Shown: positions 6,849 to 23,872 of the stretch, one piece after another
How positions within the stretch are numbered: position 1 is the first letter of the stretch
Layout of the letters: every line of letters starts with the position of its first letter
Origin: a virus
IMG/VR virus record: IMGVR_UViG_3300030106_001290
Location: 729 to 25,015 of that record
Strand: one strand, 5' to 3'
DNA: 24,287 nt
Translations under genes and position numbers: made by a program
Notes under the pieces: model-generated
The model's input: the letters and a program-made list of their open reading frames with translations, nothing else
The model's database searches: none
What the model was told of the DNA's origin: nothing

Positions 6849-7199
6849 ATGGATAAATTTTTATTTTTTACAGACGGAGATACTATCGACGCTGCTGGAG
6901 ACATCGCTTGTTATCCACTAAGTTCTTTTTTAGGATTTAGTAATGACGCTTCTGATGCTGTTTCATTAGCAATGAAGTTTGTATCTTCTGTTACAGGACC
7001 TGGCGCGACAACTGAAATCGACACAGTTAGTTTAGTAATTACTGCTGCAAAACATAAGAAAGTTATTGAATCAATCACTAAAGCTATAAACGCTGCAACT
7101 TTTGATGATAATAGCGGTCTTATTGTTGTTTGTGATGCTTTGAACTCAGTATTTGCTGATTCAGATATTACAGGCTGTGCAATAACTCACGACTCGTAA
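6849..7199 (+). CDS. Small probable head decoration/auxiliary protein
   Basis: This is a 116-residue acidic, Ala/Ser/Asp-rich protein that starts MDKFLFFTDGDTIDAAGD. It has alternating hydrophobic beta-like stretches (AMKFVSSVTG, TVSLVITAA, GLIVVCDAL) and a central helix around KKVIESITKAINAA. It has no signal peptide and no membrane helix. It follows the capsid gene after 25 bases, shares that gene's type of leader, uses ATA for only 2 of 10 Ile codons, and is the last gene before a strong terminator. All this points to an abundant protein made with the capsid, most simply a head decoration or auxiliary protein. A protein of this type following the capsid gene is familiar to me from marine phages, but I know no established function. 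Confidence 0.62.
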   Translation: MDKFLFFTDGDTIDAAGDIACYPLSSFLGFSNDASDAVSLAMKFVSSVTGPGATTEIDTVSLVITAAKHKKVIESITKAINAATFDDNSGLIVVCDALNSVFADSDITGCAITHDS

Positions 7200-7213
7200 G
7201 TCAACCAATAATT

Positions 7214-7251
7214 AAAGGAATAGGCGCTTCGGCGCCTAGCCCTTTATTTTT
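7214..7251 (+). terminator. Rho-independent-type terminator with UUCG loop
   Basis: A perfect 7-bp stem TAGGCGC/GCGCCTA closes on a TTCG tetraloop (7221-7238). An outer AAAGG/CCTTT stem (7214-7218 with 7241-7245) sits across a two-base internal bulge, followed by a short T-run (7247-7251). It lies 14 bases after the small head gene, in the longest intergenic gap (74 bases) in the window. The GC-rich stem stands out from the AT-rich surroundings. It probably ends or attenuates the transcript that carries the capsid genes. Confidence 0.85.
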
Positions 7252-9747: not shown

Positions 9748-12700
9748 ATGCCTGAAATTAAAAATAATTTTGTCCAAGGTAAAATGAACAAAGATCTTGA
9801 TGATCGTTTATTACCTAATGGACAATATAGAGATGCGCTAAACGTAACTGTTGGTAGATCTGACGACTCTGATGTAGGTGTTGTGCAAAATGTAAAAGGT
9901 AACACACTTGCTTATCCAGAAACTTTAAATATTATTGCCGCGTATCCAAAAGCAAAAGTTATAGGTTTACATGTAGACAATGAACAGGAAAGAGTTTTTT
10001 ATTTTGTAACAGATAGATCAACAGGTGTTTTATCTGATACTATTGGACCTCCAGGCTCAAGTGGTAATCCATTAGCAGCTTCAACAACTTTTCACGGTAT
10101 ATATTATTGGGACCAGCAGTCAGGCTTTGGTCAACCAAAACTTATAGTTAAAGGTCATTTTTTAAACTTTAGTAAAGATTATTTAATTACTGGTACTAAT
10201 ATTATAGGTGATTTATTATTTTTTACTGATAATTTAAATCAACCTAGAAAAATAAATATTAATACTGCAATAGCTAATGTTACATATTATAATAACGAAC
10301 AAAAAGTAAGTGTAGCTAAATACGCACCGTTTTATCCAATAAGATTGTTAGACTCTTCTAATAACTCAACTATGGTTAATGACGCAGATGTTGAATCTGT
10401 ATTTTTAAGAGATCAATTTGTAAGATTTAGCTATAGGTTTAAATACAAAGATAAAGAGTATTCTACAATGGCTCCTTTTACTCAGCCAGTATTTATACCT
10501 AAAACATACGCTAATGATTCAACAGGCTTATCTGATGCTGATATATCTAAAATATTTGAAACAGGCGAAGTGTCATCAATGGTAAACAATATAAATAAAG
10601 TTGTTTTAAAAATACAAATGCCAAGCAATGCTTCTACCGTTTTAGAAGACTTTGATATTACAAATATACAAATATTATCAAGGGTTGATGGTGATTTATC
10701 TGTTAGAGTTGTTGAAGATATAAAATCAGTGGATGCTTCTATTAACAGTGGTGTATTAAATTACACATATAAATCATTAGAGCCTTTTAAAACAATACCA
10801 GAAGATCAAACTACAAGAGTTTTTGATGATATACCTTTAAGAGCTAGAGCTCAAGAAGCTACTGGTAATAGAGTAATATATGGTAATTATACAAACAAAA
10901 GATCTTTAGCTAATACTATTTTAGATTATGATGTTGATAGAGCTACAAAAAATTCAGCTACTAGTAGTGAAGATGATAACTTATATAAAGAATATAAATA
11001 TCACAATTTAAAATCAAGAAGAACGTATCAAGTAGGTGTTGTGTTATCTGATATATTTGGTAGACAATCACCTGTTTTATTGCCTAAATCAAATAGTAGT
11101 GCAACTTCTACTGAAAGATCAACTATATACGCTTCTGCTCGTGATCCTCAAACGTTTAATTCATCACAGTGGCAAGATTATTCAGTGACTACAACTAATA
11201 CTGAAAACTGGGGTGATGTATTAAGAATATCGTTTAAACAACCTATAGACAATGTATACAGCGCTTCAAATCCATATGGCTGGTATTCATATAGAATAGT
11301 TGTAAAACAACAAGAACAAGAGTATTATAATGTTTATACTTATGGTGTACGTAGAGCTAGTACTAATATAGGTTTTATATCTTTACATGGTGATAATGTA
11401 AATAAAGTTCCTAGAGATTTAACAGACGTAAATAAAGACACTGATATAGCTGGTAGTAATGTTAGACTGTATCCAAAAGTTATTAACACTAATACGGCTT
11501 TAGGTGGAACAAGAATTAATTATTTATCTAGTGGTGATTTATTTGATGTGATGGAAATAGCTACTATAACTGATTTTGGTTATTCTACTACAGAATCAGA
11601 TCAAATGGGGGCGTTTGGACCTTTGTTTTTTAATACTTATTTAGGTAGTGATACAGGTGGGGGAAGTCCTACTGCACCTACAGCTGTTACTAATAGCTTA
11701 TTAGCTAAGTTTTCTGTATCAGATATTATACAAACAGACGCTGCTGGTCAAGAAATACCTGTATTATATAGTAAAATGGGTAAATTAGCTGTTTTTGAAA
11801 CAGAGCCTTTTAATTCTAAATTAGATATATTTTACGAAACATCTACAGCTGGACTTGTTTCAGATTTAAATACATCTATTTTAACATCATTAACAGGTAT
11901 AACAGATATACAAATATTTGAACTGTTAAATGATGGTGGTACTGGGCTTACAGAAGCTACTTCAATAGGTCAATTTGTTGCTGAAGTTAAAGCATTTAAC
12001 GATGGTGGAGCGCAGCAAAATGCTGTTTTAACTATACAGTCAGCTCAAAGTAGTGTAAACGGTGATGTAAGTGATAATTTTATAATAGAAGAAAACAATG
12101 GTCTTTATAAAATTAAAACGCAAAATACTAATTATTTTTTTGGGCAAAACGGTGAGGTTATAGATTTTACTATAAACTCTAACTTTGCTAATGAAGATTT
12201 TACTCAATCAAAAATATTATATTTAAAAAATATACCACCAAGCTTTATTAAGCCGCCAGATCCTATTAGCGTACCGTTTAATAAACCTTTAGATGTAGAG
12301 ATATTAACTATACAAGCTGAAAATGGTAGCGCCTTAGAAACACAATCAGGTATATTAGGTATTGAACCTACGGTACCTGCTTTTGAAATACAAAGCCAAA
12401 CATTGGTAACGGGTAAATACCAAATAGACCCAGATAATGGTAAAATAAGTGTTTTACAGTATCTATCAGGAAACAATCAATTATTAACAGGTACAGATAT
12501 TATTATTGTTAAAGTTAACGATACAACTAATTCACCAACTTTTCCACCTGATTTAACTGCAGAGCAATATCAAACTCAAACGCCTAGTGGTTTAACAGAT
12601 TCTAGCGCTAATTTTGATTCAGATGATGATGCTGTTTTTAACACTGTTGAAGTTATTATAAATGTAACAGGTAGTGAATTTAAGCCTTTCTATGCTTCTG

Positions 12701-12954
12701 AAAATGGATTTAGTACACCTATTGAAGCCGCAAATCAACCAACAACTAAACAATTATGGCATGATGGGTTTGTTAATTTACCTAGCGACAATGGAAATCA
12801 ACCAGGTGATAAAGTATATGAAAGTATAACTCCACTTGTAGTTTTTGATACTAATAATCAATATCACACTATGTCTTTAACTTTTAATGGTACTAATGTA
12901 CAATCATTTGTATCTGATTCAAACGGTGAGGTTACAGATGTAGACCAGCTGTAA
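9748..12954 (+). CDS. Tail 'stabilization/muzzle' protein, N-terminal part of a split gene
   Basis: This is a 1068-residue tail protein whose first 50 residues (MPEIKNNFVQGKMNKDLDDR, then LPNGQYRDALNVTVG and VQNVKGN) are the hallmark of the very large tail or stabilization proteins of marine and crAss-like phages, probable makers of the short tail nozzle or muzzle. Residues ~15-520 look beta-rich and propeller-like (HGIYYWDQ, FFTDNLNQPRKININT, FVRFSYRFKYKDKEYS). From ~640 to the end there are Thr/Ser/Asn-rich beta repeats resembling Ig or cadherin-like inserts (PPSFIKPPDPISVPFNKPLD near 830; FNTVEVIINVTG near 965). The domain that normally follows in this family is encoded by the next gene, in the same phase, after two TAA codons (12952 and 12964). 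The product ends VTDVDQL. I infer that the two polypeptides assemble together. Confidence 0.8.
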   Translation: MPEIKNNFVQGKMNKDLDDRLLPNGQYRDALNVTVGRSDDSDVGVVQNVKGNTLAYPETLNIIAAYPKAKVIGLHVDNEQERVFYFVTDRSTGVLSDTIGPPGSSGNPLAASTTFHGIYYWDQQSGFGQPKLIVKGHFLNFSKDYLITGTNIIGDLLFFTDNLNQPRKININTAIANVTYYNNEQKVSVAKYAPFYPIRLLDSSNNSTMVNDADVESVFLRDQFVRFSYRFKYKDKEYSTMAPFTQPVFIPKTYANDSTGLSDADISKIFETGEVSSMVNNINKVVLKIQMPSNASTVLEDFDITNIQILSRVDGDLSVRVVEDIKSVDASINSGVLNYTYKSLEPFKTIPEDQTTRVFDDIPLRARAQEATGNRVIYGNYTNKRSLANTILDYDVDRATKNSATSSEDDNLYKEYKYHNLKSRRTYQVGVVLSDIFGRQSPVLLPKSNSSATSTERSTIYASARDPQTFNSSQWQDYSVTTTNTENWGDVLRISFKQPIDNVYSASNPYGWYSYRIVVKQQEQEYYNVYTYGVRRASTNIGFISLHGDNVNKVPRDLTDVNKDTDIAGSNVRLYPKVINTNTALGGTRINYLSSGDLFDVMEIATITDFGYSTTESDQMGAFGPLFFNTYLGSDTGGGSPTAPTAVTNSLLAKFSVSDIIQTDAAGQEIPVLYSKMGKLAVFETEPFNSKLDIFYETSTAGLVSDLNTSILTSLTGITDIQIFELLNDGGTGLTEATSIGQFVAEVKAFNDGGAQQNAVLTIQSAQSSVNGDVSDNFIIEENNGLYKIKTQNTNYFFGQNGEVIDFTINSNFANEDFTQSKILYLKNIPPSFIKPPDPISVPFNKPLDVEILTIQAENGSALETQSGILGIEPTVPAFEIQSQTLVTGKYQIDPDNGKISVLQYLSGNNQLLTGTDIIIVKVNDTTNSPTFPPDLTAEQYQTQTPSGLTDSSANFDSDDDAVFNTVEVIINVTGSEFKPFYASENGFSTPIEAANQPTTKQLWHDGFVNLPSDNGNQPGDKVYESITPLVVFDTNNQYHTMSLTFNGTNVQSFVSDSNGEVTDVDQL

Positions 12955-12984
12955 ACTACTATATAAATATGTAATATAAATAAA

Positions 12985-14283
12985 ATGGCGTACACACTTG
13001 AAATATCTTATTTTAACTCAATAGTATTGAAGCCAGAAACAGGTATTGTTCAGTTGCCACTTGATGCAAATGGTAGTTTTATAGCTACTGAAACTTTATC
13101 AGGTGATGCTAAGGCTGGTGATTATCATATTGAAGAGTCAAGAATAAAAGGTGGTTTTAACGAAGACTCAATGGGTTTTGGTGTAAAAGCATATATAACA
13201 GACGAAAATTACGATATAAATCATAGATCAAATGCTATGATATTTTCAGGTATATTTAACACAAGAACAGGTGTTAATAATACAAATCAGTTTAATTCAA
13301 GTCAACCTATAACTAGAGCTGTTGATATAGCTGATGGTAGTATACAAAAATTATACTCTGAAGATACTAATTTAATAATATTTCAAGAAGATAAAGTTAA
13401 TAGGGCTTTAATTGATAAAGACGCTATATTTACAGCTGAAGGTCAAGCTTTAACAGTATCAGGCGCTAAAGTTATTGGTCAAATAATACCTTACACTGGT
13501 AGGTTTGGTATTAGCAAAAACCCTGAAAGTTTTGCTGTATATGGTAGAAGAAAATATTTTGTAGACAAATCAAGATCAGCTGTATTAAGATTATCACAAG
13601 ACGGTATTACTACTATATCAGAATATGGCATGTCAGATTATTTTAAAGATAACATAAAAAAATATGGTGTTATATACGGTGCTTTTGACGAGCATAATAA
13701 AAAATACACAGTATCTTTACAAGAAGGAACTGATCAAGATGATGATGCAACATTATCTTTTGATGATAGAATTAACGGTTGGGTTAGTTTTTATTCATAT
13801 ATACCTAATTTTTCATTTAGTTTAAATACTAAATATTATACATTTAATAACATAGATATATACGAGCATTATGCTAACGAACTTAGAAATGTTTTTTACG
13901 GTAGACCTTTTGTTAGTACTATTGATTTAGTATCTAATCAAAGCCCGTCACTTGTAAAAAACTTTCATACAATAAACTACGAAGGAACTACAGGTTGGAA
14001 AATGAATACATCTGTTACAGACTCTGGCGACGCAGCTTATACTGTACTAGCTAATGATACTTCTGTTTCAGCCTCAACAATACCTGTAAACTTTGTTAGA
14101 AAAGAAAATAAATACTACGGTCATTTAAGAAACAACACACCTACTAATTATAGCGGTCAAGTTGTTGGTATAGATGTATCTGGTATAAAAGGATTTTTTA
14201 CAAAAGTACAATTAGAAAATAATAAAACAACACAAGCTGAACTGTTCTCAGTATCACACAACGCTGTGTTTTCATCAAGTTAA
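12985..14283 (+). CDS. Tail 'stabilization/muzzle' protein, C-terminal part of a split gene
   Basis: The 432-residue product carries motifs I know from the C-terminal part of the large marine tail protein: ESRIKGGFNE (~50-60), IFSGIFNTRTGVNNTNQFN (~90-108), LIIFQEDKVNRALIDKDAIF (~130-150), GRFGISKNPESFAVYGRRKY (~170-190), VLRLSQDGITTISEYGMSDY (~200-220), NGWVSFYSYIPNF (~264-276) and NFHTINYEGTTGWK (~320-333). The block looks like a beta-propeller plus a small beta domain. The ATG has a good A-rich leader (aatataaataaaATGG), so independent initiation is likely. It is in the same phase as the upstream gene across a 30-base gap with two stops, so the pair looks like one ancestral gene split in two. 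Residues 1-45 have no clear family match and may be new linker or interface sequence. Confidence 0.8.
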   Translation: MAYTLEISYFNSIVLKPETGIVQLPLDANGSFIATETLSGDAKAGDYHIEESRIKGGFNEDSMGFGVKAYITDENYDINHRSNAMIFSGIFNTRTGVNNTNQFNSSQPITRAVDIADGSIQKLYSEDTNLIIFQEDKVNRALIDKDAIFTAEGQALTVSGAKVIGQIIPYTGRFGISKNPESFAVYGRRKYFVDKSRSAVLRLSQDGITTISEYGMSDYFKDNIKKYGVIYGAFDEHNKKYTVSLQEGTDQDDDATLSFDDRINGWVSFYSYIPNFSFSLNTKYYTFNNIDIYEHYANELRNVFYGRPFVSTIDLVSNQSPSLVKNFHTINYEGTTGWKMNTSVTDSGDAAYTVLANDTSVSASTIPVNFVRKENKYYGHLRNNTPTNYSGQVVGIDVSGIKGFFTKVQLENNKTTQAELFSVSHNAVFSSS

Positions 14284-14288
14284 TTAAA

Positions 14289-14921
14289 ATGGGATTATTC
14301 GGAAATAGTGCTGCAGACGACGCAAGAGACAGATTTAATGAAGCTCAAAGAGCTTTAAATGCTAAATTAGCTAGTAGACAACCTATTGTCAACCCTTATG
14401 CTAATATTAGTGATTTATCTGGTATGATTAGCAATCCTTTTGCTAATTTGCAAGTAGCTACAGCAGCCGCAGAGCTTCAAGCTGAAGAAGCTGATTTAGC
14501 TTTAGCAAGCACATTAGATACATTAAGAGCAACAGGCGCTGGCGCAGGTGGTGCTACAACACTAGCACAAGCTGCATTAAGAAGCAAAGCAGGTGTATCT
14601 GCTAGTATTGCTCAACAAGAGGCTAGAAACGAACAATTAAGAGCTCAAGGCGAGCAACAAGCAATAAAAATGCGTATGGGTGAAGCTGAAAGACTACAAA
14701 ACGCAGATATATTAGGTAGACAATATATGTTTGATGCACAAGAACAAAGAGATGTTGCTGATATATCTAGACTATCAGCTATGTCACAACAGTTTGCTCA
14801 ACAAGAAATGGATGCGGCTGCTTCTGGAAGTAACTTACTTGGCACAGTTATTAGTGCTGTAGGTGGTCCTGTAGCTGGCGGTATTTTTGATATTGCAAAA
14901 GATTTATTAAAAGATAGATAA
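14289..14921 (+). CDS. Putative small internal virion (cargo) protein
   Basis: This is a 210-residue protein, Ala/Gln/Glu-rich and almost entirely helical. Residues ~10-30 and ~60-75 are charged helices. A Gly/Ala hinge (GAGAGGATT, ~92-100) precedes a long helix (~105-170) with heptad-like spacing (QQEARNEQLRAQGEQQAIKM). A Gly-rich amphipathic or weakly hydrophobic C-terminal helix (LLGTVISAVGGPVAGGIFDI, ~183-202) could insert in a membrane. Such an organisation, located between tail genes and giant virion genes, recalls T7 gp14-type and crAss-like cargo proteins that are ejected to line a channel. I cannot establish homology by eye. It starts 5 bases after the muzzle gene and ends 2 bases before the next ATG. 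There is no signal peptide. Confidence 0.6.
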   Translation: MGLFGNSAADDARDRFNEAQRALNAKLASRQPIVNPYANISDLSGMISNPFANLQVATAAAELQAEEADLALASTLDTLRATGAGAGGATTLAQAALRSKAGVSASIAQQEARNEQLRAQGEQQAIKMRMGEAERLQNADILGRQYMFDAQEQRDVADISRLSAMSQQFAQQEMDAAASGSNLLGTVISAVGGPVAGGIFDIAKDLLKDR

Positions 14922-16642: not shown

Positions 16643-19600
16643 ATGCTTGAAGATATCTACATGTTAGATGGCGTAGAGATTGATATTTCTATCTTTAGTG
16701 ATGAAGAAAAAGAAGAGTTTTTTAGAAAATATCCTGCGGCTACTAAAAAAGAAGATATCGGTGGTGGTATGTTAAATACCACGCTAGACGCAATGAATAC
16801 TACTTTAGATTCTTTAAAAAATAGATCTCAAGAAGAAGGTGATTGGAAAAATTTAATTTTTAATCCAAATATGCGTACTATTGTTGAAACTGCTTTTGAT
16901 AGTGGTTTAGCTCAGGAAGCTGTAAATAAATATTCACCTATAGTATTATCTGGATCTGCTGGTTTAATTAAATCAACAGCTGATTTATTTTCAAACGCTA
17001 TTGATTTAAGAAAAGGGTTGTATGATTCTGTTACAGGATTAGCTTACGATTATGGTGTTTCAGAATATGTTACAGATGATAATATTAGAAAACAATTAGA
17101 AGATCCTGATAAAAGAAATGAATTTTTAGATCAGTCTTCAGAAATACTTGATAAAATAATAAGCTATATACCACCATCACTTACTAGAGTACCAGTAAAT
17201 GTTGATTTTAAAGGTGTAAGCAATGTTTTTAAAACAGTATCATCAGCTGCTGATGTACTTGTTAAAAAAGGTGGTGATTATGATTTAGGTGTTTTAGGTG
17301 CTTTACAAGAAGGTAAATTTGATATAGCTCTTGATAATACTGTTCAAGGTGTTTTTCAAGCTATTCCTTCCGCATATGCTGTAATAGCAGGTGGTCCAGG
17401 TGGTATGGCGCTAATTGGTACTTCTGCCGCTGGACAACACTACGAAGAATTAGCCAAAGCTAATCCAGATGAGAGAGGCGCTAGTATGTTTGCTACTTCT
17501 CTAGCGCAAGGTGGTGTAGAACTAGCATCAGAAGCTGTAACAAGAGGTTTAGCTAAGGGTTTGTATAGAACTTTTGGTGGTAAAGTAGATAATTTAGACG
17601 AAGTTTTTAAAACTGGTCATAAAATGATTTTAGGTAAAATTGCTAAAAGCGCGTTTTATGAAGGTTTATCTGAAGTAGCTGCTCAAGAAGTTAATAACAT
17701 GATTGACGAAACTTGGGGTATAAATAGATTTTATAATGAAAACGGTGAATTTGATGGCAGTGCTTTATTAAGAAGAACTTTTGATACATTTTTAATATCT
17801 TCTTTTATTGGTGGTGGTATTGGTGGTAAAGTTGGTTTAACACAAAATCAAACTAACTTGATGTATGAAAGAATGACGCCAGATGATATTAAAAAAGAAA
17901 ATAAATCTTTAGCTAATAGAATAAATCAATTAAACTCAATATATAAAGAAACTAAAGACACAAGTATACTTAGTGAGATTAAAGCTTTACAAAACAAAAT
18001 ATATGCTAACAAAATAAAAGTTGGTAAAATTGTAGAAGCTATGCCTAGTGATTTAAAAAAACAATATTTAGATAATTTAATAGGTATTGATGACGCTGCT
18101 TTGTATATTAAAAATGGTAAATTAAACCCTAGACAACAAGGTTATTATAAAGGTGTAATAACTAAATTAAAAAATAAAAATGGTAAATATTATTCTTTTG
18201 CCGAAGCTATGGCAAATGAGTTAAGTTTGCAAGAAAATATACAGTTTACTAAAGATTATGCTGAAGATAGAGGTTATAAAAGCCCTATTATTGCTAAAAC
18301 ACCTGAAGAGTTTGCTGAAAAAAGCGGTCAAGACGCTAGTGCTGATGGCGCTTTTGTTGACGGACAGATATATATAAACGAAACAGTTGCTAGACAAACA
18401 GGCGCTATATCTGTTGGTAGTCACGAGCTTTTACACAGAATATTACAAAATTCTTTACTTGACCCAAATCAAAGAGTTAAATTAATAAATGAGTTTAAAA
18501 CCGAGCTTGAAAAAAGAGGTTTTCATAAAATTGTACAAAAACGTATAGATGATAATTACAAGCTTGATGAACAGGGTAATGAGCGTGATATATCAGAATA
18601 TGCTGAAGAATATTTAACATCTTTTTCTGATGCTATTGTAAAAGGTGATATTGTTTATGACGAAGGCTTTTTTGAAAACATAGGTAGAACTATAATAGAA
18701 CCTTTATTTAGAAAAATACCAGCATTTAGAAATGTTAAATTTAATACTGGTAAAGATGTTTTTGATTTTGTTAAAAACTATAGTTTAAATGTTCAAGCTG
18801 GTAGACAAACTACAGGTGTAGTTCAAGATGAAAGAGGTGAAGATAAAGAAGCCGCTAAATCTATTAGTAGACAAGCTGCAAAAGCTAGAGATGAATTAAA
18901 TAAATTTCAAGACGGAACTACAAATAATGACGGTAGTTTTAATAAAGCTAAATTTCTTGAAAATGTAAAAGAAGGTGAAAGATCTATACAACAAACTTTA
19001 AAAGGCATGGTTGAAGCTAAAGGTAAAGCTTTAATTGGTAAAGGTTTAAAAATGAACTTAAATGAATATACAGCTCAAACATTAGCTGAGTTGTTATTTA
19101 GAGGTGATTTAAACAAGTTTAATGGTACTGGTCAGCTTTATGGATACATGAATCAAAGAATTAAATTTGCTTCATTAGATGCGTTTGAAAACAACCCTAC
19201 TATTGTAGACAACTTTGATAATCTTGACTTAGAAAAAATTAAAAATGTAGTTGGTGAAGATTTACCAAGTTTACCTGGTGAAACTAATATAGTTGAAGAT
19301 GTTGAAGGTAGAAAAATAAACCCAACTAGTATAATAAAAGATCCTGTACTTAGAAAAAAATACGTTGATCTTGTTAAAGAAAAATTAAAATCTAGAACAG
19401 CGAAGTTTATAGCTGATTCAGGTTTAGGATTAGAAGTTTTAGCAGAAATAACTGGTGTGCCTTTGGCTAAGTTAAGAGACGATGCAAAAAATTTAACATA
19501 TAAAGATGAAATTGTTACACAAAGAAATTTAAGTAAAATAAAAGAATTTTATCCCGACGCAACAGTTGGTATGATTATAAAGTCTGAAGCTGGTAAAATA

Positions 19601-22600
19601 CAAGATTTTATTAAAACAAATCCTGACTCTAGATTATTTTTACCACCTGAAAATGTAATACCAGATGATACTCAAAGAGATATAAAAGGTTTATCTATAA
19701 AAATAAAATCATCATTATTAAAATCTTTTTATAAATCAACTGGTAGAAGAAGTAAAGGCGTGACATCTCAAGTTGGTGTAAAAGAATTAATACAAGAAAA
19801 AGTTAATACACCTGAAAATTTTAATGCAGAGTTTGGTATAGTAAAAGGTCAACCTAATACTTATGATAGAGCTATAGGCCAAAAGTTAAAAGGTTATATG
19901 AATCTTATTGATAAGATGATGACTAACTTTTTAGAAGGTGAAACTGTTAGTCCAGCAGAAAAACAAGCTGTTAGAGCTGGTAAGCCAAAAGCATTATTGT
20001 CTAAGACTGTTAATGACATAAATTATTCTCAACAAGGCTTTGGATTAAAAAAAGGTGATGTATCCGGTAGACAAGCAAAACAAAAAAATAAAACATCTGA
20101 AAACTTTTCAAGAGGTAGTAGATTTAGTGATACAAATGAAATACAAATAGTTGCAGATGTTCAAAGTCAATTTTTTGAAATGCACCCTCAATGGATTAAT
20201 GATACTAGAGCTGCTACAACTAATGGCGGCGGTAGAAGTATATTTGAATCAACAGAAGACTTTGACAATAGAGTTGGTATGCAACGTGTTAGCGAAGGTA
20301 AAACTATTGATAAAGTTTTTAAAAAAGATAATTACTCTAAAAATAAAAAACAAACTAAAGAATTTATAGATAAAGTTCTTGCAAATCCAGTTAAATATGC
20401 TCAAGAGCAGGTTGCTAAAGCTAGAGATTATGTAGGGTATTTTGAAGATGTGCAAAGTTTTTTAAATAGAAAAAGAACTGGTAAAGAAAAAACTACAAGA
20501 GCAGAGGAAATTTTTGCGTTTGAAGAGATTATAAATGATGCTCAAAATCAAATGGATCATTTTTTAAGAGTTGGCGCAAGAATAAACTTTATATATGTTG
20601 ATGATAATAAAGCTCCAATATTTGATGAAGAAGTAACACAAGAGCACACAGGTGTAACAGTTGGCATTGGTAGAAGTTCTTTATTATACGCTAGAGATAA
20701 TATAATGAGTAAATATGCTCGTGTAATAACAGCTACTTATATGCAAGGCGCTTTACAATATCTTACAGATAGACAATTAGGAGCAGCTGAAGCTAAAGGC
20801 GGTGTAGCTCTTGGTAAAAAAATGGGCCAAGATTTTTCTGATTTAATGAAAGCTTTAGCAGAAGGTGAAATAAAAGGCACTGAAGTTGAATTATTTTCAA
20901 TAGCTAGATATTTAGACCCAAGACTTACTAGATTTAATCCTAATAGGTACTTGTTAATAGATAAAAACAAAACAATGACTGAACATTTTAATGTAAATGT
21001 TCCGCCTAAACTTAGATCAGATGTTGTAGTTGCTAAACAAAAAGAATTAATGTTAGATATTTTATTTGAAAGAATATCTAAATCTAAAGCTAAACAAATA
21101 ATAAATAGATTTGCAGCTAAAGATGCTGTTAAAAAACAAAATGCAGCTAAAAATTCTAACGAATCGTTGTCTATTTTAACTGCTAATGTAGATAACGTGT
21201 ATGATCAAATAGATATATTAGCTAAAATCGATAAAGCAGTTGCGCTTTCTAAAACAGCTAACAGACCTAAAAAAGGTATAAGTGTGTTTGATTTTGATGA
21301 CACACTTGCTCAAACTAAAAGCATGATATTAGTTACTATGCCTGATGGTAAAACTAGTAAAATAAATGCTACTGAATTTGCCGCTAAGTCTGAGCGACTA
21401 GAGTTACAAGGCGCGACTTTTGATTTTAGTGAATTTAACAAAGTTGTTGAAGGTACAAAAGGACCACTTGCTGATTTAGCCTTAAAACGTCAAGGTAAGT
21501 TTGGTAGTGGTGATATATTTGTTTTAACAGCAAGACCTCAAGCTTCTGCAAAAGCAATACAAAAATTTTTAAAAGGCATTGGTTTAAATATACCTTTACA
21601 AAATATAACCGGCTTAGAAGATGGTAGACCACAAGCAAAAGCCAACTGGATAATAGGCAAAGTATCAGAAGGTTATAATGATTTTTATTTTGCTGATGAT
21701 GCTTTAAAAAATGTTAGCGCTGTTAAACAAGTTTTAGATCAAGCAGATGTTAAATCAGATGTACAACAAGCTTTATTAAGTAGAACAAATGCAGTTGATA
21801 GACAGTTTAATGATATAATAGAGCAAAAAACAGGTGTTGATTGGTTTAAAGAATATTCTGCTGGTAAATCTAGAAGATTAGGTAGAGGTAAAGGTTTAAG
21901 GTTAATAATGCCTTTTTCAACTCAAGATTTTCAAGGTTTAATAAAACATATAACACCAAAAGGTAGAGAAGGTGATATTGCTGAACAATGGTTTGAAGAG
22001 AAGTTGTTTAGACCATTTGCCAAAGCAGAAGCAGCTATAGCTAGAGATGAAATTAGTGTTGGTCAAGATTACAAGCAATTAAAAAAATTATATCCAAGTA
22101 TTCCTAAAACTTTACACAAAGAAGCCGTTGATGGTTTTTCTTATTCAGATGTTATAAGAGTTTATATATGGAATAAACAAGGTTATGAAATAGAAGGTTT
22201 ATCAAAGTCTGATTTAAATCAAATAAATGATTTTATAAATAAAGATTCAGAACTTAAATCATTTGCTAATAGTCTTGAAAATATACAAAAAGGTAGACCA
22301 TATCCAAAACCTGATGTTAATTGGCAAGCTGGAACTATTACTACAGATATAAGAGAAGGTATGAGAACAGTAAATAGATCTGAATATTTAGAAGAGTGGC
22401 AGCAAAATGTTGATGTAATCTTTTCTGAAAAAAATATGAACAAACTTGAAGCTCAATTTGGTACAGCTTATGTTAATTCTTTAAGACATATATTAGATAG
22501 AATGAAGTCTGGTGTAAATAGACTTAATACTGGAAACTCTATAACTAATGATTTAATGGATTGGGTTAATGGATCTGTAGGTGCTATAATGTTTTTAAAC

Positions 22601-23872
22601 ACAAGATCTGCTGCTTTACAGTTAATTTCTAATGTAAATTTCTTAAATTGGAGTGATAATAATATATATCAAGCTGGTAAAGCTGTTGTTAATGTGCCAC
22701 AATACGTTAAAGATGTTAAATTTTTAATGAACTCGCCAATGCTACTTAAACGTAGGCAAGGCTTAAGAATAAATGTAGCAGAGTCAGAATTAGCAGACGC
22801 TTCAAGACAAGGTGGTGTTAAAGGAATAATAGCTTTGTTATTAAGAAAAGGTTTTATATTTACTCAAATAGCAGATAGTTTAGCTATATCTACAGGTGGT
22901 GCGCCTATGTATAGAAACAGAATAAACACTTATTTAAAAGAAGGATTTGATCAAAAAACAGCAGAAGAAAGAGCTTTTTTAGATTTTCAAGAAATAGCTG
23001 AAGAAACACAACAGTCTAGTAGAACTGATAGAATTAGTATGCAACAAGCTTCTGATTTAGGTAGAATAGTTTTAGCTTTCGCAAATACACCTATGCAGTA
23101 TAACAGATTAATACAAAAATCTGTTTCTGATTTAGTAAATAGAAGAGGTGACGCTAGAAGTCATATAAGTAAAATATTATATTATAGTACTATACAAAAC
23201 TTTATATTTAATGCTCTTCAACAAGCGCTTGTTGCAATAGCATTTACAGATGATGATACTTTTGATGAAGAACAAAAGAAAAAGTTTAGAGACGAAAAAT
23301 TATTTAACACAGCAAATGGTATGTTAGATTCATTACTTAGAGGATCTGGATATGTAGGCGCAGGCGCGTATGCTATAAAAAATGTAATAATAAGTTTACA
23401 AAGACAAAGTAAAAAAGCTAATCCAAAGTTTGAAGATTCTGCTGCTAGAATATTAGATTTTTCACCACCTATATCTTCAAAAGTTTCAAAATTAAGAGGT
23501 GGACTTAGAACATTAAGCTGGGAAAGAGACGAAATAGTAGAAAAAGGATTTAGCTTAGATAATCCAGCTTTATTAGCAGGCGCTTCAATACTAAATGCAT
23601 TTACTAATATACCATTAGACAGAGCTGTAAGAAAATACAATAATATAAGCTCGTCTTTTAATAATGATCATGGTTTACCGATAAGAGTTATGACTGCTCT
23701 TGGTTGGAGTGAAAGAGATTTTGGCGTTGAAGACTGGCAGATAGAGCAAAGAGAAAGAGAAAGAATTAGAAAAGCAAAAGAAAAATTTAAAAATAACCCA
23801 TCAAAGTGGCCAAAACTAGATTTAAATAAAAAACGAACAAAACTAAATTTAAGAAAAAGAAAAATATTTTAA
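16643..23872 (+). CDS. Giant virion cargo protein with metallopeptidase-like and HAD phosphatase-like modules
   Basis: The 2409-residue product takes up 30% of the window. Residues ~235-410 include Gly/Ala-rich weakly hydrophobic segments (AIPSAYAVIAGGPGGMALIG; FLISSFIGGGIGGKVG). An HExxH motif, HELLH at 594-598, is followed by a Glu pair at 655-656 (EYAEEYL), the arrangement of a gluzincin-type zinc peptidase. Residues 1550-1690 contain a full HAD set: DFDDT at 1550-1554, T1629 in VLTARP, K1666, and D1685-D1686 in YFADDA. The C-terminal ~550 residues (from about NGSVGAIMFLNTRSAALQLI) match, from memory, the C-terminus of giant proteins in marine phage genomes and end very basic (LRKRKIF). 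No signal peptide is present. The location and size suggest a protein packed in the capsid and ejected. The enzyme calls rest on motifs only. Confidence 0.8.
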   Translation: MLEDIYMLDGVEIDISIFSDEEKEEFFRKYPAATKKEDIGGGMLNTTLDAMNTTLDSLKNRSQEEGDWKNLIFNPNMRTIVETAFDSGLAQEAVNKYSPIVLSGSAGLIKSTADLFSNAIDLRKGLYDSVTGLAYDYGVSEYVTDDNIRKQLEDPDKRNEFLDQSSEILDKIISYIPPSLTRVPVNVDFKGVSNVFKTVSSAADVLVKKGGDYDLGVLGALQEGKFDIALDNTVQGVFQAIPSAYAVIAGGPGGMALIGTSAAGQHYEELAKANPDERGASMFATSLAQGGVELASEAVTRGLAKGLYRTFGGKVDNLDEVFKTGHKMILGKIAKSAFYEGLSEVAAQEVNNMIDETWGINRFYNENGEFDGSALLRRTFDTFLISSFIGGGIGGKVGLTQNQTNLMYERMTPDDIKKENKSLANRINQLNSIYKETKDTSILSEIKALQNKIYANKIKVGKIVEAMPSDLKKQYLDNLIGIDDAALYIKNGKLNPRQQGYYKGVITKLKNKNGKYYSFAEAMANELSLQENIQFTKDYAEDRGYKSPIIAKTPEEFAEKSGQDASADGAFVDGQIYINETVARQTGAISVGSHELLHRILQNSLLDPNQRVKLINEFKTELEKRGFHKIVQKRIDDNYKLDEQGNERDISEYAEEYLTSFSDAIVKGDIVYDEGFFENIGRTIIEPLFRKIPAFRNVKFNTGKDVFDFVKNYSLNVQAGRQTTGVVQDERGEDKEAAKSISRQAAKARDELNKFQDGTTNNDGSFNKAKFLENVKEGERSIQQTLKGMVEAKGKALIGKGLKMNLNEYTAQTLAELLFRGDLNKFNGTGQLYGYMNQRIKFASLDAFENNPTIVDNFDNLDLEKIKNVVGEDLPSLPGETNIVEDVEGRKINPTSIIKDPVLRKKYVDLVKEKLKSRTAKFIADSGLGLEVLAEITGVPLAKLRDDAKNLTYKDEIVTQRNLSKIKEFYPDATVGMIIKSEAGKIQDFIKTNPDSRLFLPPENVIPDDTQRDIKGLSIKIKSSLLKSFYKSTGRRSKGVTSQVGVKELIQEKVNTPENFNAEFGIVKGQPNTYDRAIGQKLKGYMNLIDKMMTNFLEGETVSPAEKQAVRAGKPKALLSKTVNDINYSQQGFGLKKGDVSGRQAKQKNKTSENFSRGSRFSDTNEIQIVADVQSQFFEMHPQWINDTRAATTNGGGRSIFESTEDFDNRVGMQRVSEGKTIDKVFKKDNYSKNKKQTKEFIDKVLANPVKYAQEQVAKARDYVGYFEDVQSFLNRKRTGKEKTTRAEEIFAFEEIINDAQNQMDHFLRVGARINFIYVDDNKAPIFDEEVTQEHTGVTVGIGRSSLLYARDNIMSKYARVITATYMQGALQYLTDRQLGAAEAKGGVALGKKMGQDFSDLMKALAEGEIKGTEVELFSIARYLDPRLTRFNPNRYLLIDKNKTMTEHFNVNVPPKLRSDVVVAKQKELMLDILFERISKSKAKQIINRFAAKDAVKKQNAAKNSNESLSILTANVDNVYDQIDILAKIDKAVALSKTANRPKKGISVFDFDDTLAQTKSMILVTMPDGKTSKINATEFAAKSERLELQGATFDFSEFNKVVEGTKGPLADLALKRQGKFGSGDIFVLTARPQASAKAIQKFLKGIGLNIPLQNITGLEDGRPQAKANWIIGKVSEGYNDFYFADDALKNVSAVKQVLDQADVKSDVQQALLSRTNAVDRQFNDIIEQKTGVDWFKEYSAGKSRRLGRGKGLRLIMPFSTQDFQGLIKHITPKGREGDIAEQWFEEKLFRPFAKAEAAIARDEISVGQDYKQLKKLYPSIPKTLHKEAVDGFSYSDVIRVYIWNKQGYEIEGLSKSDLNQINDFINKDSELKSFANSLENIQKGRPYPKPDVNWQAGTITTDIREGMRTVNRSEYLEEWQQNVDVIFSEKNMNKLEAQFGTAYVNSLRHILDRMKSGVNRLNTGNSITNDLMDWVNGSVGAIMFLNTRSAALQLISNVNFLNWSDNNIYQAGKAVVNVPQYVKDVKFLMNSPMLLKRRQGLRINVAESELADASRQGGVKGIIALLLRKGFIFTQIADSLAISTGGAPMYRNRINTYLKEGFDQKTAEERAFLDFQEIAEETQQSSRTDRISMQQASDLGRIVLAFANTPMQYNRLIQKSVSDLVNRRGDARSHISKILYYSTIQNFIFNALQQALVAIAFTDDDTFDEEQKKKFRDEKLFNTANGMLDSLLRGSGYVGAGAYAIKNVIISLQRQSKKANPKFEDSAARILDFSPPISSKVSKLRGGLRTLSWERDEIVEKGFSLDNPALLAGASILNAFTNIPLDRAVRKYNNISSSFNNDHGLPIRVMTALGWSERDFGVEDWQIEQRERERIRKAKEKFKNNPSKWPKLDLNKKRTKLNLRKRKIF

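Follow-up and report, generated by a model that had tools for sequence, protein, structure and literature searches.

The muzzle, the tail-tip protein that gates the release of DNA, is encoded by two genes in a large clade of uncultured marine bacterial viruses, and this arrangement is an ancient inherited state. We describe it from a window of 24,287 nucleotides, part of a 25-kb virus record, in which the two genes are ORF1 (1068 amino acids) and ORF2 (432 amino acids). The best explanation, in which we have considerable confidence, is an old gene fission that left ORF1 and ORF2 adjacent and whose two products would co-assemble as a two-chain muzzle subunit; we prefer it because the matches to the two propeller ends of gp44, the muzzle protein of phicrAss001, are on different chains. 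Purifying selection acts on both genes: relative to L007, a near-identical contig from another metagenome dataset, dN/dS is about 0.13 in the ORF1 body, about 0.18 in the ORF1 tail and about 0.07 in most of ORF2.

Table 1. Features of the two-gene muzzle region (window coordinates)
Feature	Position	Strand	Basis or content
ORF1, muzzle N-terminal gene	9748..12954	+	N-terminal propeller/ring-joining part, middle domains, cadherin-like tail
Anchor segment ending ...FETEPFNSKLDIFYETSTAGLVSDLN	11773..11889	+	last ORF1 stretch in common with fused homologues
ORF1 tail, aa 716-1068, cadherin-like repeats	11893..12951	+	profile, Foldseek, tail HMM
TAA stop of ORF1	12952..12954	+	sequence
Second in-frame TAA, AT-rich leader	12964..12966	+	probably incidental
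Leader motif AAATATGTAATATAA, weaker copy of AAAACAHGTRATWAT	12965..12979	+	GT 14 bases upstream of ATG
ORF2, muzzle C-terminal gene	12985..14283	+	conserved strand EISYFNSF, ESRIKGGFN, C-terminal propeller part

Two genes with the two ends of a muzzle

The remaining structural genes of the window have their matches in phi38:1-type phages, which makes the virus a relative of the crassviruses; its closest named phages are Pervagoviridae and Elemovirus. Virion structural genes (phrog_13977 and phrog_14543) precede ORF1, and the genes behind ORF2 show synteny with phi38:1 in their order and sizes. The pair occupies the position of a muzzle gene, after the ring/tail-tubular protein gene (where gp44 is likewise sited) and before the cargo and large virion genes. 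At the place of a large structural gene of phi38:1, the window carries a 2409-aa ORF (16643-23872) for which PHROGs and NCBIfam searches gave no match. Related contigs fall mostly in marine Bacteroidota bins, some clearly misbinned, which hints at the host phylum: contigs of the group from GTDB MAGs (L221-L233) are binned with Bacteroidota MAGs, and also with MAGs of Ilumatobacteraceae, Woesearchaeota and Pelagibacter in what looks like misbinning.

The original prediction assigned the N-terminal hallmark of the muzzle to the first product and the C-terminal hallmarks to the second, and profile comparisons bear this out. ORF1 matches positions 1-340 of the 1474 in phrog_14478 (E = 6e-54) and ORF2 matches positions 919-1277 (E = 8e-48). 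The C-terminal muzzle domain is present in ORF2, which scores 29.6 bits against Pfam crAss_MUZ_C (PF25729; curated cut-off 27). The ring-joining start of the muzzle, where the propeller begins, is found in ORF1 through phrog_14478 and hhalign to gp44; a Pfam scan of the window ORF1 gave no PF25731, a family above cut-off in the relative L034. The crassvirus muzzle, a tail-tip hexamer, is characteristically made from a single polypeptide; here we find two genes, and the clade has kept them separate.

The reference structure is gp44 of phicrAss001 (PDB 7qok, 7qol; PMC10172136), one chain of 1371 residues whose ends are matched by the ORF1 and ORF2 chains. By hhalign, ORF1 6-192 aligned to gp44 7-176 (96.9%, E = 1e-10) and ORF2 100-348 to gp44 1035-1292. 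Since the gp44 propeller begins before residue 163 and resumes after IG2, a domain that reaches to residue 1021 (PMC10172136), these alignments divide the propeller between the two chains.

AlphaFold models of ORF1 and ORF2 as single chains (mean pLDDT 71 each) point in the same direction. The best PDB match of the ORF2 model is the phicrAss001 muzzle (7qok_A, E = 1.3e-16); it also matches the nozzle proteins T7 gp12 and P22 gp10, remote proteins that are single chains. The propeller and ring-joining domain of gp44 have been likened to the T7 nozzle (PMC10172136). Besides cadherins, the ORF1 model matches the muzzle chain 7qol_P (E = 7e-9) over 526 Foldseek alignment columns, with a TM-score of 0.22 and an ORF1 middle that is only moderately modelled. 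Sequence searches of solved structures, with the single proteins and with the ORF2 profile, returned no muzzle, which was found by fold comparison alone. The low-confidence parts of the models (ORF1 1-59 and most of ORF2 1-110) would be compatible with a missing partner, although this is no proof.

One old fission and a re-fusion as the simplest history

Single-ORF muzzles homologous to the window pair at both ends, and in the same synteny, occur in the cultured relatives phi38:1 (gp097; a Cellulophaga phage of the Pervagoviridae), the elemo phages and Tenacibaculum phage Gundel_1; the uncultured genome MW202828 has a single ORF as well. These fused homologues uphold the earlier view that one muzzle protein is here made as two polypeptides. 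Most relatives of the window in IMG/VR have the split form. In a 178-row tree, a clade of 94 rows (support 100) comprises 84 split rows and 10 nested fused rows, and 78 of the 80 rows in its sister group are fused. The original prediction would have been contradicted by homologues whose two halves are always separate genes; this is true for most of the clade and false for the sister group, the cultured relatives and one nested subclade.

Four state changes suffice for the 178-row tree. Because the ten fused rows nest in the split clade, the simplest history, with the fewest changes, has a single old fission that was reversed once by re-fusion, and two later fissions that occurred separately (L293 and L340). 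The same ten rows lie within split rows whether the tree is built from the C-terminal muzzle region or from the adjacent gene for the ring protein. The two trees disagree on which rows are sister to the re-fused clade, and the ring-gene tree draws another two fused rows (L163, L164) into the split ones, where the branches are unstarred. Grouping all split rows in one clade was rejected by the AU test (p = 0.0056). A single origin of the main fission is supported by the leader motif and tail module that distant split lineages have in common.

Other interrupted muzzles were encountered. L293 and L340, represented by one contig each, appear to be independent fissions in the otherwise fused sister group, and their breaks lie elsewhere, inside a small linker domain. 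The muzzle of Maribacter phage Panino (L004) is annotated as two ORFs owing to a frameshift at 7180-7243; we rejected it as a case of the same fission, as the frameshift falls within a conserved propeller blade and adjoins a T5 run, and it is a sequencing error or a recent mutation. Muzzle genes with additional internal frame breaks in L048, L080, L127 and L145 are probably assembly errors or decaying copies.

Junction, leader and added tail

The two window genes were claimed to lie in exact phase, separated by 30 bases and two TAA codons, and the coordinates confirm this (start-to-start distance 3237 = 3 x 1079). Thirteen of the 14 genes listed for the window terminate in TAA, which is therefore read as a stop. 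The second TAA, within a leader of very high AT content, is probably incidental, and we give it no weight. L007 and L008, near-identical contigs from two other metagenome datasets, repeat the stop, gap and start identically, so that the split in the window contig is not an assembly error, and sequencing error had rightly been discounted.

The further claim, of a gene split by tandem in-phase stops, did not survive comparison with relatives. Among 77 distinct split relatives, the second gene is in phase 0 in 36, phase 1 in 22 and phase 2 in 19. The gap measures 1-44 bases in 73 of them and 458-514 bases in the other four, where a complete gene of about 170 codons stands between the muzzle halves. 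A shared phase occurs by chance in one case out of three and the relatives are spread over all three phases, so the phase seen in the window is uninformative. Variable phase, short gaps and an interposed gene together argue for an old two-gene arrangement and not for a stop-interrupted frame. The extra gene, seen in one subclade (L036:6450-6959, L072:6526-7020 and L102:10859-11392), shows weak nucleotidyltransferase-like similarity only.

ORF1 can be aligned with fused homologues up to an anchor with the consensus LDIFYETSTSGL. From this anchor to the conserved ESRIKG segment, fused proteins have 16-230 residues (55-62 in the re-fused clade, by the same measure); ORF1s of the split clade continue for 248-966 additional residues past the anchor and then stop. 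ORF2 starts with the strand EISYFNSF, directly ahead of ESRIKGGFN. The break had been placed in a variable beta-rich insert; its position is more specific than this, after the extra tail and directly before that conserved strand. Placed by eye in a weakly conserved stretch, it may map close to the IG2 G-H insertion of gp44.

Where it is recognisable, the added tail is cadherin-like, as judged by sequence profile and modelled fold. The tail profile matches cadherins (CELSR1, E = 1.5e-12), as does the modelled fold in Foldseek (E = 1.8e-10); when the window ORF1 was scanned as a single sequence against Pfam, no cadherin match came up. In the set tested, the tail HMM matches split ORF1s only, though not every one, the tail of L096-type ORF1s being different or too diverged for it. 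The tail profile found no match in the fused homologues tested, including phi38:1 gp097, the elemo phages and Gundel_1. The crass domain of gp44 has no clear match in ORF1, which has cadherin-like repeats instead, and we know of no cadherin-like tail on T7-like or P22-like nozzle proteins.

The ORF2 ATG (12985) is preceded by AAATAAA and, at 12965-12979, by a weak copy of a leader motif. A GTRAT core, usually inside AAAACAWGTAATAAT, is found 8-16 bases upstream of the ATG in 59 of the 77 split leaders and is missing or altered in 18. In ten split-clade contigs, compared with a second-order Markov model, the strict motif is over-represented in the sense orientation between other genes: AAAACAHGTRATWA was found 5 times at other junctions, versus 0.0 expected, and 0 times in antisense. 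The loose form tried first showed no clear enrichment outside the muzzle (18 hits including the muzzle, versus 7.6 expected). The stricter forms were derived from muzzle leaders and several patterns were tried, so that the enrichment is good without being a clean single test. AAAACAHGTRATWAT recurs at a few junctions per genome in G001, G002, G003, G004, G005, G007 and G010, its strict form on the sense strand only, at a varying distance from the start codon and, in G007, with a hairpin in between. The leader motif is thus a candidate promoter or other gene-start signal for ORF2.

Competing explanations and implications

Could the junction still yield one protein, through read-through of the stop, a frameshift or an altered genetic code? 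The common phase of the window genes and the alternative codes reported in crAss-like gut phages (PMC7886860) invite this idea; however, those codes involve TAG and TGA (PMC7886860), and the stop here is the TAA that closes nearly all listed window genes. ORF2 also retains its ATG, usually with the leader motif. The varying phases and gaps of the relatives exclude read-through for the group taken together, and we rejected recoding, which we regard as very improbable, on phase, gap and TAA use. Slightly less probable still is a group I or II intron, or an intein, that interrupts one gene and is then removed. Introns and inteins reportedly break up conserved genes of crAss-like gut phages, which likewise appear as several ORFs and from which splicing restores one protein (PMC7886860). 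The window clade differs in its lack of a splicing element, its variable phase and the whole gene that intervenes in some members; moreover, the gap is short in the window and falls to a single base in relatives. Rfam searches found no family at window 11500-14400 or in six relatives, and no intein domain was found in ORF1.

The Panino frameshift beside a T run shows that errors of this kind happen, but a recent disabling mutation in the window phage, or an assembly error, has next to no probability here: it is refuted by a junction that recurs in near-identical contigs of other datasets and in 77 distinct relatives, and by strong purifying selection on both sides. Another reading, unlikely in our opinion, is that functions have parted, ORF2 remaining in the tail channel and ORF1 becoming a separate adhesin-like tip protein. 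The long, faster-evolving cadherin-like tail of ORF1 and the leader usual for ORF2 are in keeping with such a parting; against it, ORF1 retains the N-terminal muzzle part with many invariant positions, and the two genes, directly adjacent in 73 of 77 relatives, have re-fused once, as would suit parts of a joint structure.

We retain the two-chain muzzle subunit as the explanation, a likely prediction from sequences and models. The ORF1 chain would supply the N-terminal part, with propeller and ring-joining segments, followed by the middle domains and the added cadherin-like tail; the ORF2 chain, with a translation start and a leader of its own, would contribute the conserved edge strand and the remaining propeller. 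Wherever the muzzle has one single-chain subunit, both chains may co-assemble instead, the channel-gating beta-propeller then being completed across chains, and the free ORF1 tail would sit at the tip, probably towards the host surface. The leader motif may act as promoter or other gene-start signal for ORF2. More speculatively, and we hold this extension to be doubtful, the amounts of the two propeller chains may be set independently and the freed ORF1 C-terminus may have turned into an exchangeable, cadherin-like adhesin of the tail tip; amounts could differ because ORF2 would have its own promoter inside the muzzle region. If so, fission and re-fusion would let marine phages alter the host-facing tip with the gate undisturbed.

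We found no earlier report of a split muzzle in the literature searched, which covered few subscription papers, and a prior description may exist. The muzzle has been described as the gatekeeper of ejection in crassviruses and is a single chain in the one solved case. With its clade-wide two-gene muzzle, broken between portions of a single propeller, its common leader motif and its nested re-fusion, this group of marine phages offers natural variants for testing where the gate needs covalent joints and whether the tip exchanges independently. For annotators of these phages, a "missing" C-terminal half of the muzzle is the normal state.
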